Shown here piece by piece: positions 9,684 to 53,322 of a DNA stretch of 64,000 nt. A program made the translations under genes and the position numbers. Numbering within the stretch: position 1 is the stretch's first letter; every line of letters starts with the position of its first letter. Source of the stretch: Neobacillus sp. YX16 (GTDB lineage: Bacteria; Bacillota; Bacilli; Bacillales; Cytobacillaceae); contig NZ_CP126115.1 of NCBI RefSeq assembly GCF_030123505.1, forward strand, positions 6,152,001 to 6,216,000, written 5' to 3'. The notes under the pieces were generated by a model. The model was not told where the DNA came from. It made no database searches and was given only the letters and a program-made list of their open reading frames with translations.

Positions 9684-9722
9684 AAAAAAAGAGAGATAAG
9701 CAAGAAACCATGCTTACCTCTC
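9684..9722 (-). terminator. Terminator of the parMR-like operon
   Basis: A 12-bp stem (9691-9702 with 9711-9722, one mismatch) is followed on the minus strand by seven T residues (9690-9684). It lies 32 bp past the parR-like stop. Confidence 0.85.
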
Positions 9723-9753
9723 ATATCATTATATGTGCCAGAAATTGCACTAT

Positions 9754-10338
9754 TTATTTATTCATACTCGCTAGAAATCCGCCAAGCAAATCATCTAAAT
9801 CAGGCTCTTCTTCAACCTTTTCTTCTTCAATCACAGGTTTCACATTATCCCAATCAAATCCACTTAAGTCATCATCCATATCGCTTAAATCAATCGAAGC
9901 AGCGATTTCCTCTACGGCGCTGTCATTCTCACGATAAGAATGGATCTCAGGAATACTTTCCTCTTGGAGATATAAAGCCTCATCGATATCTAGTGAACTG
10001 CTATTTAAACTCGCAAGCAGGGAAGTAGACCGGACTGGGTCTGATATTAACTGATAGATAATACTCCCTAATAATGCCTCAGAATGCTCATGCTTCAACC
10101 AGTCACGCTGTGCTTTCGTTAGCTTTTTGGGCAGCGGGACATTAATCATCTCGCGTTCTCTTGCATTAACGTTACTGACACCCTCCATCACGAACTCTGC
10201 AATCTTGCTGGAAAAATTTCTTCTTTCAGTTTCCTTTAACTTTTGCAGCTTCTTAACCAAATGGTCAGGTGTATCAGAAGGGACACGGAAGGAGATTGCC
10301 TGTCCCCGCTGAATTTCATGTGTTCCAGCCTTTTTCAT
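9754..10338 (-). CDS. ParR-like DNA-binding segregation protein
   Basis: 194-residue protein directly downstream of a ParM-like actin gene (12-bp gap), the usual place for the ParR adaptor. The N-terminus looks like a ribbon-helix-helix: a strand QAISFRVPSD, then two helices covering about residues 20-55. The C-terminal third is strongly acidic, with EEEKVEEEPDLDDL, and ends in a short amphipathic helix GGFLASMNK. In ParMRC systems such a tail contacts the filament end. No sequence family was firmly recognised, so the assignment rests on gene order, architecture and the adjacent repeat array. Confidence 0.7.
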   Translation of the reverse strand: MKKAGTHEIQRGQAISFRVPSDTPDHLVKKLQKLKETERRNFSSKIAEFVMEGVSNVNAREREMINVPLPKKLTKAQRDWLKHEHSEALLGSIIYQLISDPVRSTSLLASLNSSSLDIDEALYLQEESIPEIHSYRENDSAVEEIAASIDLSDMDDDLSGFDWDNVKPVIEEEKVEEEPDLDDLLGGFLASMNK

Positions 10339-10350
10339 TTCATCACCCTA

Positions 10351-11538
10351 TTAATTGGTAACAGGTTTTTTAGGTTGTTCGACCTTTTGTTTCTCTGCCT
10401 TTTTAACAAAATCTTGAATTAGCTTATAATAGGCATTTGCCATCATCCAAATGCTTTCTTTTTCATCTTCAAAGAAATCAATATTAAAACCATCGAGATT
10501 GTTATTTAATGTTTTAAGATAATCCTTTAAAACGGTAGCACCACCGCCGACAAAGTAACAAATTTCCGTTTGGGAGTTCTTTGACCAAACATTACGTAAT
10601 AAGCGGTATTGTTTCTTTGCTAAATCTAGTAGAATGCGATCCGTTATATCATGAACACTTGTTCTGCTTCCTTTAACCATGATATGATTTCGGTCGTTTT
10701 TCTTGGTGATGATTTCAACAACATCACGACGGCTGTCTAGTTCAACACCGTGCTTTGTTCTAATTTCTTCACGGATTGCTTCTAATGATTCTGAAACCCC
10801 GAGATTAAAGCCTTGCGCTTTATCATCATCAACATTTCGATTTTTAATAACGGCGATATCTGTTGATAATCCGCCAATATCTTGAATCAAGATACGCTTA
10901 TCGATTAGGTCTTTATTAATAATTTTTGAGTTATTATCCATTACTAGGTTAATATAAGCAGCAAAACCTTCAGGGTATACCTTGATTTCATCAAACTTAA
11001 TATTTACCTTTAAACCTTGGTATTTAGGTGTAACCAGAAACTCTACTTGGTGAACAGAACCGATTAGCTTCGAACGGTAGCCTGCATCCTTACCTTCCTT
11101 AACTTCACGAAGAGGGAGGCCAGTTCCAAGTGTGTAGTTCGCATCAATGACATTTTTCGTTTGACGGAAATTATTCTTATTTCCTTCCTTCACAGCGTCC
11201 AAAGCCAATGTAGTAAAGAGTAGAATTAACGTTTGATCTTCTTCAGACTTACTGCTGCCAGGATCTAATTCAGTCCCATTGTTGCTTTTAGTTGCTAGAT
11301 TTCCGACACGATATATGGCGTTATTCTCCTTTAATGCAGGAGAGTGCACTTTTACATGAATACCATCAAGTGGATTCTTATCATCTAATTCTTCTATTCC
11401 AATAACAGGGCGGTCTTCCGTGTCCCTTGCGATAATATTTGGGATATTAAGTTCATATTCTAATTCTCCAAAAATAGCCTTAATTGAATCATTCCCTACA
11501 TCAATAGCTGCAATTCTAGTATTATTCAAAATTGTCAT
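10351..11538 (-). CDS. ParM-like bacterial actin (segregation ATPase)
   Basis: 395-residue actin-fold ATPase. Phosphate-1 motif AAIDVGNDSIKAIFG is at residues 9-23, phosphate-2 motif QDIGGLSTDIAV lies mid-protein, and the adenosine motif is CYFVGGGATVLKDYL near residue 340. This pattern fits the ParM/StbA/Alp group that polymerises to push DNA apart, rather than MreB, FtsA or DnaK. It is first in a two-gene operon with a ParR-like gene. A 180-bp repeat array lies immediately upstream, as parC does in plasmid ParMRC loci. Such systems are typical of plasmids and phages, so finding one between metabolic genes here is unusual. Confidence 0.82.
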   Translation of the reverse strand: MTILNNTRIAAIDVGNDSIKAIFGELEYELNIPNIIARDTEDRPVIGIEELDDKNPLDGIHVKVHSPALKENNAIYRVGNLATKSNNGTELDPGSSKSEEDQTLILLFTTLALDAVKEGNKNNFRQTKNVIDANYTLGTGLPLREVKEGKDAGYRSKLIGSVHQVEFLVTPKYQGLKVNIKFDEIKVYPEGFAAYINLVMDNNSKIINKDLIDKRILIQDIGGLSTDIAVIKNRNVDDDKAQGFNLGVSESLEAIREEIRTKHGVELDSRRDVVEIITKKNDRNHIMVKGSRTSVHDITDRILLDLAKKQYRLLRNVWSKNSQTEICYFVGGGATVLKDYLKTLNNNLDGFNIDFFEDEKESIWMMANAYYKLIQDFVKKAEKQKVEQPKKPVTN

Positions 11539-11658
11539 CCTTTCATTCTATTAATTTAGATGTTAATGAAGATATGTATCTAACTTCTCTAGTATAAGAG
11601 TATAGAAGTTTGCTAGATTCTTCAATATCCCAGACAAAAAGAAATGAAAGTGTAAAAT

Positions 11659-11840
11659 TGTAAACAATACGTAATCGTTGTATACATTTATGTTTACAAC
11701 GAACACAAACCTGTACACATCGCTCTATATCAACATGTATACGAGTTTGTACACATGTAAACATTTTTGTAAACACCATGTATACAATATTGTAAACAAG
11801 TGTACATTTTTCGTAAACATGTATACGCATTCTGTATACA
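11659..11840. repeat. Candidate parC centromere: 14 phased TGTAWACA-type motifs
   Basis: Motifs of the form TGTAAACA, TGTATACA, TGTACACA or their complements begin at 11659, 11679, 11691, 11712, 11736, 11748, 11756, 11768, 11779, 11791, 11801, 11812, 11820 and 11833. Most spacings are 8-13 bp, close to one helical turn. The array lies between the parM-like gene and its upstream neighbour. A clustered, phased array next to a parMR operon is the standard layout of a ParR-binding centromere that also acts as operator. Confidence 0.78.
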
Positions 11841-11867
11841 AAAAAACAGACCCCTTGGGTAAGGGAC

Positions 11868-12113
11868 CTATTCCTTCTTTGTCCGTTTGATTCCTTCATC
11901 CGTTACAGCAAAGTCTCGAACCATTTTCTTAATTTTTTCAGGTTTACGGAATCTTAATGCAGACCAATCATCGTCAATCGCAATTTGCCGAACTGGTTCA
12001 TAGCCTTCTTCAGAGAGCATACCCGTAACCGTTTCTCGGCTGCAGTTGGATCCTTTATAGGTCTTCGATGACTTCTTAGGGTAGCAGAGCCAAAATAAGC
12101 CATCATCCTTCAC
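11868..12113 (-). CDS. C-terminal half of a frameshifted DUF3052-like protein
   Basis: The 81-residue segment begins VKDDGLFWLCYPKKSSK and continues with EEGYEPVRQIAIDDDWSALRFRKP. This looks like the C-terminal half of a small conserved bacterial protein resembling DUF3052. In this family the segment follows directly on the helix encoded by the upstream frame. The apparent start (GTG 12113) has no convincing RBS, and the frame is open further upstream. It is therefore more likely reached by a -1 frameshift at the A AAA AAG heptamer, or represents a mutational split. Function unknown. Confidence 0.65.
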   Translation of the reverse strand: MKDDGLFWLCYPKKSSKTYKGSNCSRETVTGMLSEEGYEPVRQIAIDDDWSALRFRKPEKIKKMVRDFAVTDEGIKRTKKE

Positions 12114-12328
12114 ATAAGTAACCGCTTTTTTAGCATTAGATGAAGTTCTTCATTACTAGTACCAAACACCTGAACAAAATCATACATCTCCAGTTCTGCC
12201 TGATGATGAACCTCCCCTTCGAATGCAGCTTTCATCTCATCATAAGACTTTGGTGCATTGATAACTAATACCGGCTGCCCTTGATCCTTAAAGTTTAACT
12301 TTTTTAATACGGGAGCTCCTGCTGTCAT
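12110..12328 (-). CDS. N-terminal half of a frameshifted DUF3052-like protein
   Basis: 72-residue frame with a good RBS (GGAAGG) before ATG 12328. It encodes VLVINAPKSYDEMKAAF and YDFVQVFGTSNEELHLMLKK, then diverges into RLLM and stops at 12110. The zero frame reads CTA AAA AAG CGG. Slipping back one base after AAG gives GCG GTT ACT TAT GTG AAG, which encodes AVTYVK and joins the downstream half perfectly. Two explanations fit: programmed -1 frameshifting at a dnaX-type heptamer, or loss of one A from a longer A run. It diverges from the M6 protease gene. Confidence 0.65.
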   Translation of the reverse strand: MTAGAPVLKKLNFKDQGQPVLVINAPKSYDEMKAAFEGEVHHQAELEMYDFVQVFGTSNEELHLMLKKRLLM

Positions 12329-48301: not shown

Positions 48302-50115
48302 TCATCCTCTTCAGATTGCTCATATGGCAGTGAAAAGGAAATTTCCGTCCCTTTTCCCTCGTCACTTACAGCCCAAATCATGCCGCCATGAACATTAACC
48401 ATTTCCTTTGCAATGGCCAATCCTAATCCCGTACCACCCAATTTTCTTGTTCTCGCTTTATCCACACGATAAAAACGATCAAAAATCTTAGCGATATTCT
48501 CCTTGGGTATTCCTACCCCTTCATCAGAGACACTTACGACAATTTTTTCTTCTTCCTCTTTTATTGAAAAAGTAACCTGTCCGCCTTCTGGAGAATACTT
48601 AAGTGCATTCGAAATAATATTGTAAAGTACCTGTGTCATTTTATCTTCATCTATTTCTACGAAGATTGCATGAGTTGGCAGTAATCTTTGAAAGCTTACA
48701 TTTTGCTCTTTTGACATTTCAAAACGGTCAATAATACGGTCAAAGAAATCAACAAAATTTACCCATTCTTTTGAAAGTCGATAATCTGTACTATCTAATT
48801 TGGATAGTTGAAGAAGATCATTGACTAGGCGGATCATTCTTTCCGTTTCAGTCCGCGTAACTTCTAAAAAGTTAGGGGCAATCTCTTCATCCTTCCAGGC
48901 GCCATCGGCCAATGCCTCTAAGTAACTTCTCATCGTAGTGAGCGGTGTTCTTAACTCATGAGATACATTGGCAACAAACTCTCTTCTTTCCGCGTCTATT
49001 TTTTCCTGGTCGGTTATATCGTGAAGAACCGCAATTAACCCATTTACAAAACCCGTCTCTTTTTGAATAACTGAAAAGTTAGCACGAAGAATATAAGGTT
49101 CTTTTTTCGTACTATAATCAAGAATTAACGAATCCTTTTCTTCTAATAAATCTTCAAATGTATTCGTATCACTTAACCCTAATAGAGAAACAATTGGCTG
49201 TGAGAGAACTGTTTCACGTGAAACATTCAGCATCTCCGCAGCAGGTTCATTGATTAAGATAACTCTGCCTTTTCGGTCTGTCGCAATTACTCCGTCTGTC
49301 ATATAGGATAAGACGGAAGAAAGCTTCCTTCTTTCTCCCTCGGTCATGGCCTGAGCTTCTTGGAGCTTTTTCGTTAAATTATTAAAGGTTAGAGCCAAGG
49401 TTCCAATTTCATCCTGCCCGTATACCCTTACTTTTCGCGAAAAATTCCCTTTCGCCATCGCCATTGCTTGCTTTTTCATGTCTGTAATCGGTCTGGTTAT
49501 CGTCTGTGCCAGCAGTATTCCCAAGATAGCCGTAATCGCTAATGCAATACCTGTACCCGTTGCAAAAATACCATTAATGGTTTTCATTTGGGTAAAAACA
49601 TTTTCTATTTTAGCTTCCAAATAAATAGCACCAATAACATTATTGCCTGATTTTATTGGCGTCGAAAGTACCCAAATCCGGTGCCCGCCTTTTTTATCAA
49701 TTCTGATACTGCTCGAGTCTTCCCCAAGATTGATGGACTGCGTAATCCGCAGCTCTGTCGTTCTCTGTCCGACGATACCTTGGTTTGTATCGGAGGTTCC
49801 GAGAATTTTACGAGACTTTCCCTCAATAACCCTAACCTCAAAAATATCAGCAGATTCAAAATCACGAAGAATCTTTTTAATTTCATCTTCAAGGGTAGGA
49901 TCTTCAGGAGTCCTTTTTCTTTCCATTTCTTCGACCACATTATAGGCAAGCAGATTAACGCGTTCTTTTATCGAGGTTTGAAAATTTGTCCTTAATGTTT
50001 CTTCGAGCTGCCTGACAAAATAGACGCCAATAATCTGCATCGCAACTAAAATTAGCAGTACGTAGATGATTACAAATTTAACATGTATAGAACGAAAAAA
50101 ACTAACCTTTTTCAT
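48292..50115 (-). CDS. walK: Sensor histidine kinase WalK (YycG)
   Basis: 607-residue essential kinase of cell-wall metabolism. TM1 lies at about 10-32, the extracytoplasmic PAS-like sensor at 33-180, and TM2 at about 182-205. A HAMP domain, a cytoplasmic PAS domain (VIATDRKGRVILINEPAAEM) and HisKA with FVANVSHELRTPLTT (phospho-His about 388) follow. The ATPase domain includes NALKYSPEGG, DEGVGIPKEN and GTGLGLAIAKEMV. The start is ATG 50115, about 10 bases after AGGAG. The ATG at 50124 is too close. The gene carries a perfect parS site. Confidence 0.95.
   Translation of the reverse strand: MKKVSFFRSIHVKFVIIYVLLILVAMQIIGVYFVRQLEETLRTNFQTSIKERVNLLAYNVVEEMERKRTPEDPTLEDEIKKILRDFESADIFEVRVIEGKSRKILGTSDTNQGIVGQRTTELRITQSINLGEDSSSIRIDKKGGHRIWVLSTPIKSGNNVIGAIYLEAKIENVFTQMKTINGIFATGTGIALAITAILGILLAQTITRPITDMKKQAMAMAKGNFSRKVRVYGQDEIGTLALTFNNLTKKLQEAQAMTEGERRKLSSVLSYMTDGVIATDRKGRVILINEPAAEMLNVSRETVLSQPIVSLLGLSDTNTFEDLLEEKDSLILDYSTKKEPYILRANFSVIQKETGFVNGLIAVLHDITDQEKIDAERREFVANVSHELRTPLTTMRSYLEALADGAWKDEEIAPNFLEVTRTETERMIRLVNDLLQLSKLDSTDYRLSKEWVNFVDFFDRIIDRFEMSKEQNVSFQRLLPTHAIFVEIDEDKMTQVLYNIISNALKYSPEGGQVTFSIKEEEEKIVVSVSDEGVGIPKENIAKIFDRFYRVDKARTRKLGGTGLGLAIAKEMVNVHGGMIWAVSDEGKGTEISFSLPYEQSEEDEWS
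49210..49225. promoter_or_regulatory. Perfect parS site (Spo0J/ParB binding) inside walK
   Basis: TGTTTCACGTGAAACA is the exact 16-bp parS consensus of Bacillus. On the walK strand it encodes part of NVSRETV. It marks the origin-proximal ParB loading domain. Confidence 0.95.
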
Positions 50116-52854: not shown

Positions 52855-52927
52855 TGGCTCAGGACGGAATCGAACCGCCGACACAAGGATTTTCAGTCCT
52901 TTGCTCTACCGACTGAGCTACTGAGCC
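52855..52927 (-). tRNA. tRNA-Phe (GAA)
   Basis: 73-nt cloverleaf: acceptor GGCTCAG/CTGAGCC, D arm GCTC/GAGC, anticodon stem AAGGA with loop CTGAAAA, T arm with GGTTCGATTCC, discriminator A. The CCA end is not encoded. Confidence 0.96.
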
Positions 52928-52969
52928 AACTTAAGTTGTTACCATAACTTATCTATTTAGGTAAGTTAA

Positions 52970-53046
52970 TGGCGGTCTGGACGGGACTCGAACCCGCGAC
53001 CTCCTGCGTGACAGGCAGGCATTCTAACCAACTGAACTACCAGACC
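52970..53046 (-). tRNA. tRNA-Asp (GTC), CCA encoded
   Basis: Acceptor GGTCTGG/CCAGACC, anticodon loop CTGTCAC, T loop GGTTCGAGTCC, discriminator G followed by an encoded CCA (52972-52970). Confidence 0.96.
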
Positions 53047-53110
53047 ATATGATATTGATTGTCAGCAAGCAACCGGACTTGCCGATGTTTTGCCAACAAT
53101 CAAATGCCAA

Positions 53111-53182
53111 TGACCCCTACGGGATTCGAACCCGTGTTACCTCCGTGAAAGGGAGGTGTCTTAACCACTTGACCAAGGGGCC
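53111..53182 (-). tRNA. tRNA-Glu (TTC)
   Basis: 72-nt tRNA: acceptor GGCCCCT/AGGGGTC, anticodon loop CTTTCAC, T loop GGTTCGAATCC, discriminator A, no encoded CCA. Confidence 0.96.
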
Positions 53183-53246
53183 ATAAATTGAAGGTTATTT
53201 TGCTAACGCGAAAGGAAAGTAATTTTCCACTATCGCGAAAAAACTT

Positions 53247-53322
53247 TGGTGAGCCATGAAGGATTCGAACCTTCGACCCTCTGATTAAAAGTCAGATGCT
53301 CTACCAACTGAGCTAATGGCTC
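53247..53322 (-). tRNA. tRNA-Lys (TTT), CCA encoded
   Basis: Acceptor GAGCCAT/ATGGCTC, anticodon loop CTTTTAA, T loop GGTTCGAATCC, discriminator A and encoded CCA. First of the Lys-Glu-Asp-Phe cluster, the set found between purA and walR in Bacillus. Confidence 0.96.

Follow-up and report, generated by a model that had tools for sequence, protein, structure and literature searches.

A chromosomal Alp7A/ParM-type actin cassette with a centromere-like array at an origin-linked address in Neobacillus and related Bacillales

The window analysed here is a 64-kb stretch of the chromosome of Neobacillus sp. YX16 (positions 6,152,001-6,216,000 of NZ_CP126115.1), and all coordinates below are positions within it. 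At 9754-11840 it contains an operon in which an Alp7A-type actin gene is followed by a parR-like gene, both on the minus strand, behind a 182-bp array of palindromes. An original prediction, made from the DNA letters and their reading frames, had taken this arrangement for a ParMRC-like segregation cassette. Its three parts are as follows.

10351..11538, minus strand: Alp7A-type actin-like ATPase gene of a chromosomal ortholog group, 395 amino acids (from Pfam, PHROG and invariant nucleotide motifs).
9754..10338, minus strand: parR-like gene, 194 amino acids (from homology to a plasmid partner gene, ortholog alignment, AlphaFold2 helices and presence in 120 of 120 loci).
11659..11840, no strand assigned: parC-like centromere array of 13-14 TGTAWACA palindromes (from motif counts in the window, the genome and relatives).

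The actin gene product matches best the Pfam family Alp7A_like_C (E = 5.6e-38; 130.6 bits against a gathering cut-off of 22). ALP_N is also above its cut-off (3.5e-10), and MreB-like_C, described as an 'archaeal actin homologue', is matched at 5.1e-13 and 50.1 bits (cut-off 27.8), far under Alp7A_like_C. Among PHROG families the match is to a 'partition protein' family (1.8e-41). No FtsA model in Pfam was matched, a canonical MreB model never ranked ahead of Alp7A_like_C, and the protein fell far under both cut-offs of the NCBIfam ParM and FcmB models. The open reading frame predicted to encode an actin-like ATPase with three nucleotide motifs is present, and its motifs D-GND, DIGGLSTD and GGG are invariant among 34 sequences, four plasmid relatives included. 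AlphaFold2 modelled the actin poorly (mean pLDDT 48.3), and the model was used only for the ParM-class nature of its best Foldseek matches. Nine of these, from this low-confidence model, reached E ≤ 0.001: BtParM (twice), pSK41 ParM, pCBH ParM, Alp7A, Dh-cParM1, archaeal Ta0583, Alp12 and AlfA. MreB is absent from these nine, and MreB structures appear only at E ≥ 0.025. On these matches the cassette actin, its nucleotide motifs intact, belongs to the ParM/Alp class rather than to MreB or FtsA, and the clustering with MreB or FtsA models that would have spoken against a segregation actin was not seen.

Partner gene and array were followed through 120 loci of relatives, comprising 80 named loci (the best 80 among 426 stretches with a match) and 40 distant ones (29 families), which together are the full set examined for ParR. 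A parR-like gene adjoins the actin gene in 80/80 named and 40/40 distant loci. Its product has a basic N-terminal half, an acidic linker and a conserved C-terminal helix (LLG-FL-MN). Residues ~8-103 (~95 amino acids) are homologous to a 'hypothetical protein' adjoining parM on plasmids (22 records), and the gene order actin-parR is identical on the four plasmids examined. An alignment of 55 of the 120 chromosomal orthologs shows a near-invariant RGQ...FR.PSDTP...KE..RNFSS stretch, then a second similar stretch, the linker, which is variable, and the near-invariant tail. AlphaFold2 places helices at residues 25-37, 42-63, 75-82, 84-99, 101-112, 118-123 and 181-192 with moderate confidence (mean pLDDT 66.5). 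The first conserved stretch may be a ribbon-helix-helix, a DNA-binding fold that we infer, since the Protein Data Bank (PDB) gave no convincing match by fold or by sequence. No Pfam family matched the window's ParR above its cut-off, and the 55 orthologs gave scattered weak matches. In the ParM-type systems of the four plasmids, ParR is 139-149 amino acids long and ends in TFL followed by acidic residues, whereas the chromosomal protein ends in LLG-FL-MN.

The array had been credited with 14 TGTAWACA-type motifs in 182 bp, which is a fair count: 13 motifs match at least 7 of the 8 positions, and a TGTACA at 11801 can be added by eye. Outside the array, the window reaches at most 3 motifs in any 182 bp. 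The paired motif TGTAWACA-N(0-25)-TGTAWACA occurs five times in the 6,231,385-bp single-contig genome, each time inside the array, and the reversed control pattern occurs nowhere in it. Over 119 loci, adjacent motifs are mostly 12 and 8 bp apart, then 20, 11, 24 and 21, and among the periods tried for pairwise distances the best is 11.0 bp, so that the predicted spacing near one helical turn is roughly right. Such spacings would be compatible with ParR dimers that wind along a single face of the double helix, the arrangement proposed for plasmid ParRs. A motif cluster lies upstream of the actin gene in 80/80 named loci (4-13 motifs per 220 bp) and in 40/40 distant loci (4-12 motifs), and the conservation of both partner and cluster beside the actin that the original prediction had asked about is thus found in 120/120 loci. 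Outside the cluster, the richest stretch of this length counts 1-4 motifs in 64 of these 80 loci and at least 5 in the other 16, mostly additional upstream clusters. Under a stricter definition (4 or more motifs, no gap above 40 bp), 3/80 loci have no cluster (L060, L066 and L099), and two (L081 and L094) have one solely further upstream. By that definition, TGTAWACA clusters are present 0.6-7 kb upstream, in most cases at 0.6-1.9 kb, in 17/80 named loci (L040, L042, L046, L047, L050, L051, L052, L068, L070, L074, L075, L077, L081, L085, L089, L092 and L094). Partial copies of the small flanking gene lie near the extra clusters in L070 and L074, which suggests that there the array was duplicated together with flanking DNA.

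On the plasmids, three loci (L223, L225 and L226) show by eye a few GCATAC- or GCATGC-type palindromes upstream of parM and no long TGTAWACA array; a fourth, on a Paenibacillus polymyxa plasmid (L224), has four TGTAWACA-type sites upstream of parM. From this comparison, recognition sites may have diverged between cassettes.

The actin gene has a single copy in its own genome. Within the genus, matches occur in 61/61 genomes, 60 of which hold a type 85-100% identical; the remaining member (G024) is without the chromosomal type and carries two divergent relatives (40-44% identity) on one contig. Matches extend to 156/193 genomes of the family at E ≤ 1e-90 and, in an even draw across the order, to 201/397 genomes at E ≤ 1e-60 (every best match at E ≤ 4.3e-200), representing 55/135 genera and 32/47 families. 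Carriers among the matches listed include Neobacillus, Cytobacillus, Mesobacillus, Robertmurraya, Lysinibacillus, Ureibacillus, Metabacillus, Lederbergia and Fredinandcohnia. Across 398 genomes drawn evenly from the class, identities are bimodal, one group at 78-100%, another at 43% or lower and a gap separating them, and the high-identity group extends to two families outside the order (f49 and f73). The Alp7A_like_C model found no match in 14 control genomes, B. subtilis among them. On plasmids (PLSDB) the best relative is 45% identical, and none of the 369 matching records among 72,556 searched reaches 60%; 50,697 phage records gave two weak partial matches. Given these searches and the conserved chromosomal type, a prophage or plasmid remnant is unsupported. 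The cassette actin is a chromosomal ParM gene, off plasmid and prophage, in a single-contig 6.23-Mb genome with dnaA 69 kb off.

The position of the cassette relative to dnaA was established by locating dnaA in 80 genomes (44 + 36), picked mainly for few contigs and, in the second set, also for a known actin position. Two were dropped from the count (G157, with no actin position, and G342, with actin and dnaA on separate contigs), and distances allow for contig wrap-around. Among the 78 that remain, from 16 families, 77 have the cassette to the left of dnaA at a distance of 35-313 kb (median 83 kb), and all 78 have it on the opposite strand to dnaA; in Neobacillus sp. YX16 the distance is ~69 kb. 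Over up to 8 kb on each side, by comparison, the best-kept neighbouring gene family is found in 25/80 loci. Between cassette and dnaA lie genes of the Noc type (over its cut-off), the ParB/Spo0J type and the ParA/Soj type, the names Soj and Spo0J resting on position plus interpretation; the ParABS genes are ~57 kb from the cassette. The parS sites that had been noticed in the window are confirmed as parS-like sequences at 49210 (exact) and 61947 (1 mismatch). With an Alp7A_like_C score of 130.6 bits and with cassette and array kept at an origin-linked address in relatives, the ParMRC-like reading has stood up well.

The actin gene appears from these comparisons to be old. Between the window genome and 14 genomes of 11 families, identity is 78.5-88.7% for the actin and 79.3-90.5% for DnaA, while agreement at fourfold-degenerate third positions is 0.27-0.48 and 0.28-0.41, respectively, against a composition expectation of 0.32. 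Because the protein is conserved like DnaA while its fourfold sites are near saturation, the gene is judged to be old and under a constraint like that on DnaA. The near-saturated sites argue against recent horizontal spread; older transfers of the cassette may have occurred. In a tree of 52 actin rows, four of them plasmid relatives and the rest the window's gene and 47 of its 120 chromosomal orthologs, plasmid and chromosomal forms are parted with full support.

Distribution within the order was also compared with that of the sporulation protein SpoIVA, which is present in 382/397 genomes. The cassette is found in 201/382 genomes with SpoIVA and in 0/15 without (Fisher p 1.9e-5, uncorrected for relatedness). 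Three families that hold both kinds of genome show the same direction, the cassette occurring with and without SpoIVA in 14/14 vs 0/2 (f7), 9/15 vs 0/1 (f14) and 4/7 vs 0/8 (f26); another, f36, has no cassette in either kind (0/11 with SpoIVA and 0/4 without). At 2.5-3.8 Mb the genomes without SpoIVA are on the small side, and they may lack the cassette through a general loss of genes. A role for the cassette as a replacement for the RacA origin anchor was also considered. RacA-like genes, defined by NF009648 at E ≤ 1e-12, a permissive threshold that other MerR proteins may also pass, occur in 98/201 cassette-bearing and 82/181 cassette-free genomes with SpoIVA (Fisher p 0.54), and a general trade-off is rejected. 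The family's own cut-off is passed by only 10 genomes, none of which has the cassette.

The remaining features of the locus concern its transcription and its flanks.

11599..11625, minus strand: sigma-A-like promoter candidate, TTGAAG (11625-11620), 15-bp spacer, TATACT (11604-11599), from an alignment read by eye.
9691..9722, minus strand: intrinsic terminator-like hairpin 3' of parR, 12 pairs and a T run.
11851..11865, minus strand: weak terminator-like hairpin of 5 pairs 3' of the upstream gene.

With the last hairpin lying behind the upstream gene, the cassette would form its own transcription unit. The promoter candidate is placed between array and actin gene, 34-60 bp from the array, and in an eye-read alignment of 17 of the 120 upstream regions its TTG and CT-TA recur in 80% or more. 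A generic promoter scan did not list TTGAAG-15-TATACT, and the sites it found were no commoner than in shuffles (8 vs 8.2). A sigma-A pattern occurs in 16 of the 120 upstream regions against 1.55 in shuffles, while the sigma-H and sigma-F consensus sequences are found in 0 and 0 of them (shuffles 0.1 and 2.15). An operon devoted to sporulation alone is unsupported on these counts. As to the flanks, the importer that had been predicted is there, of the nickel/oligopeptide type (permease and binding protein), together with an M6 metalloprotease gene. The 'ordinary small conserved gene' on the other side needs one correction: at 11868-12328 on the minus strand it consists of two overlapping reading frames (81 and 72 amino acids), as if frameshifted, whereas relatives such as L031 have a single frame of 153 amino acids; L035 is split likewise. 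The importer and metalloprotease genes are matched in 5-7/80 loci and the small upstream gene in 14/80. The same 64-kb window also holds a cluster of four tRNA genes (52855-53322, minus strand).

Several known systems resemble the cassette. Alp7ARC of the B. subtilis plasmid pLS20 has an actin of the same Pfam family, Alp7A_like_C (Alp7A, PDB 5ec0), and alp7 of pLS20 is alike in gene order and upstream repeats. It is a plasmid system, however, whereas the present cassette is chromosomal, origin-linked and widespread in the order. ParM-type systems of Bacillales plasmids, such as pBM69 of B. methanolicus, have a 45% identical actin, a homologous N-terminal half of ParR and the same gene order. 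ParABS (Soj/Spo0J/parS), in which a Walker ATPase moves on the nucleoid, likewise acts at origin-proximal sites, and this genome has its genes and sites, but its proteins and sites are unrelated to those of the cassette. A 2025 paper described chromosomal ParMs of Desulfitobacterium, Clostridium botulinum, Bacillus tropicus, Moorella and others, left their function open, and presented Bt-cParM as conserved on several Bacillus chromosomes (PMC12270681, J Biol Chem). Like the present cassette, cParMRC combines a chromosomal ParM with a ParR and is conserved across species. According to the available passages of that paper, a palindromic cparC lies upstream in C. botulinum, ParA and ParB are encoded as well in the hosts or in related genomes, and, in a legend, no conserved cparC was identified among Clostridium strains; a fixed origin-linked address is not among the features reported in those passages (PMC12270681). 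Dh-cParM1 is a marginal sequence match to the window's actin (phmmer E 0.27). The titles and abstract openings found in searches of open-licence papers describe no origin-linked, order-wide Alp7-type cassette. What appears to be new here is the order-wide conservation, the fixed address and the co-conserved array; the chromosomal ParM kind is already known, and Bt-cParM1 or 2 may be the ortholog of the window's actin.

Taken together, these results make it fairly probable that the cassette is a chromosomal Alp7A/ParM-type actin machine that segregates or anchors the origin region. Its basis in the sequence is an operon of actin ATPase and parR behind an array unique in the genome, ~69 kb left of dnaA. 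ParR dimers would use their N-terminal half to bind the TGTAWACA palindromes, would assemble there into a ring or helix, and would probably repress the operon. The C-terminal LLG-FL-MN helix would capture the ends of ATP-actin filaments, and filaments running between sister arrays, or between an array and the cell end, could push apart or hold both origin regions. Such a machine would supplement ParABS, the need for it arising in spore-forming lineages. Of the three ideas first put forward for the locus, a second origin-region segregation device fits best. A decoy or incompatibility locus is a poor fit, since conservation of the entire motor is close to that of DnaA; a domesticated plasmid system is plausible as the origin of the cassette, which would then be old and widespread.

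A number of observations weigh against a segregation or anchoring machine. The promoter candidate looks vegetative rather than of a sporulation-sigma type, and the ribbon-helix-helix of ParR was unconfirmed by Pfam, by PDB sequence search and by Foldseek. As many as 181/382 SpoIVA-bearing genomes are without the cassette, and so is B. subtilis. Three loci (L099, L170 and L186) have only 4 motifs upstream, which is weak taken alone. One genome (G079) departs from the address; it is a draft shotgun scaffold, so its contig order may be unreliable. Distances of actin and DnaA correlate modestly over 15 genomes (Mantel r 0.42, p 0.008; Spearman 0.12), and in the actin tree families f44, f42 and f30 are split, while a single clade brings together the window's gene, named Bacillaceae and Ureibacillus rows, and rows of f14, f2, f9, f15 and f43. 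Inheritance was thus not purely vertical. One family-mixing copy has been placed (G494, f15), 109 kb off at the same address; if some of the mixing is transfer, this would argue that the address itself matters.

The array might instead be a mere operator of an autoregulated actin operon, whose filaments have a cytoskeletal job unrelated to DNA movement. Plasmid ParRs do autoregulate, and the array is directly upstream of the operon with the promoter candidate 34-60 bp beyond it. This explanation is nevertheless unlikely, for 13-14 palindromes over 182 bp far exceed an operator's need, the further clusters 0.6-7 kb upstream in 17/80 loci go beyond it, and a diffusible cytoskeletal protein needs no fixed origin-linked address. 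Some family mixing in the tree, the modest co-divergence with DnaA and the patchy presence in several families would also accord with a horizontally spreading, self-maintaining cassette that confers no segregation benefit, its origin-proximal place being one at which transfer or replacement of origin-region DNA happens to be tolerated. We think this quite improbable in view of the near-saturated fourfold sites, the absence from 15/15 SpoIVA-lacking genomes, and an address that is the same in 77/78 and an orientation in 78/78 though no neighbour family is found in more than 25/80 loci. That an ancient plasmid-derived locus was kept as an incompatibility, decoy or anti-plasmid device is very hard to credit: related genera do hold plasmid relatives, and the P. 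polymyxa plasmid has TGTAWACA-type sites, yet a decoy requires DNA alone, and at no origin-linked address, while the actin shows roughly the conservation of DnaA, the chromosomal ParR C-terminus is unlike those of the four plasmid ParRs, and no plasmid record reaches 60% identity.

If the cassette is a segregation or anchoring machine, it is tempting to extend the proposal to much of the spore-forming Bacillales, in which origins would be moved or anchored by a ParM-type motor on an origin-linked centromere beside ParABS, B. subtilis having lost the motor or never had it. For this wider proposal the case for and against is evenly balanced. On the same reading the motor would have been missed by the field because the textbook model is B. 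subtilis, and in a narrower form the cassette may serve origin capture in the forespore. A plasmid-style actin motor on the chromosomes of many Bacillus-related spore-formers suggests an actin machine that helps to move or anchor chromosomes, and indicates where reliance on B. subtilis as the model organism leaves a blind spot. With a conserved actin, an array at every checked locus, a near-fixed address and absence from the 15 SpoIVA-lacking genomes, chromosome segregation by a bacterial actin becomes testable in culturable Neobacillus or Cytobacillus.

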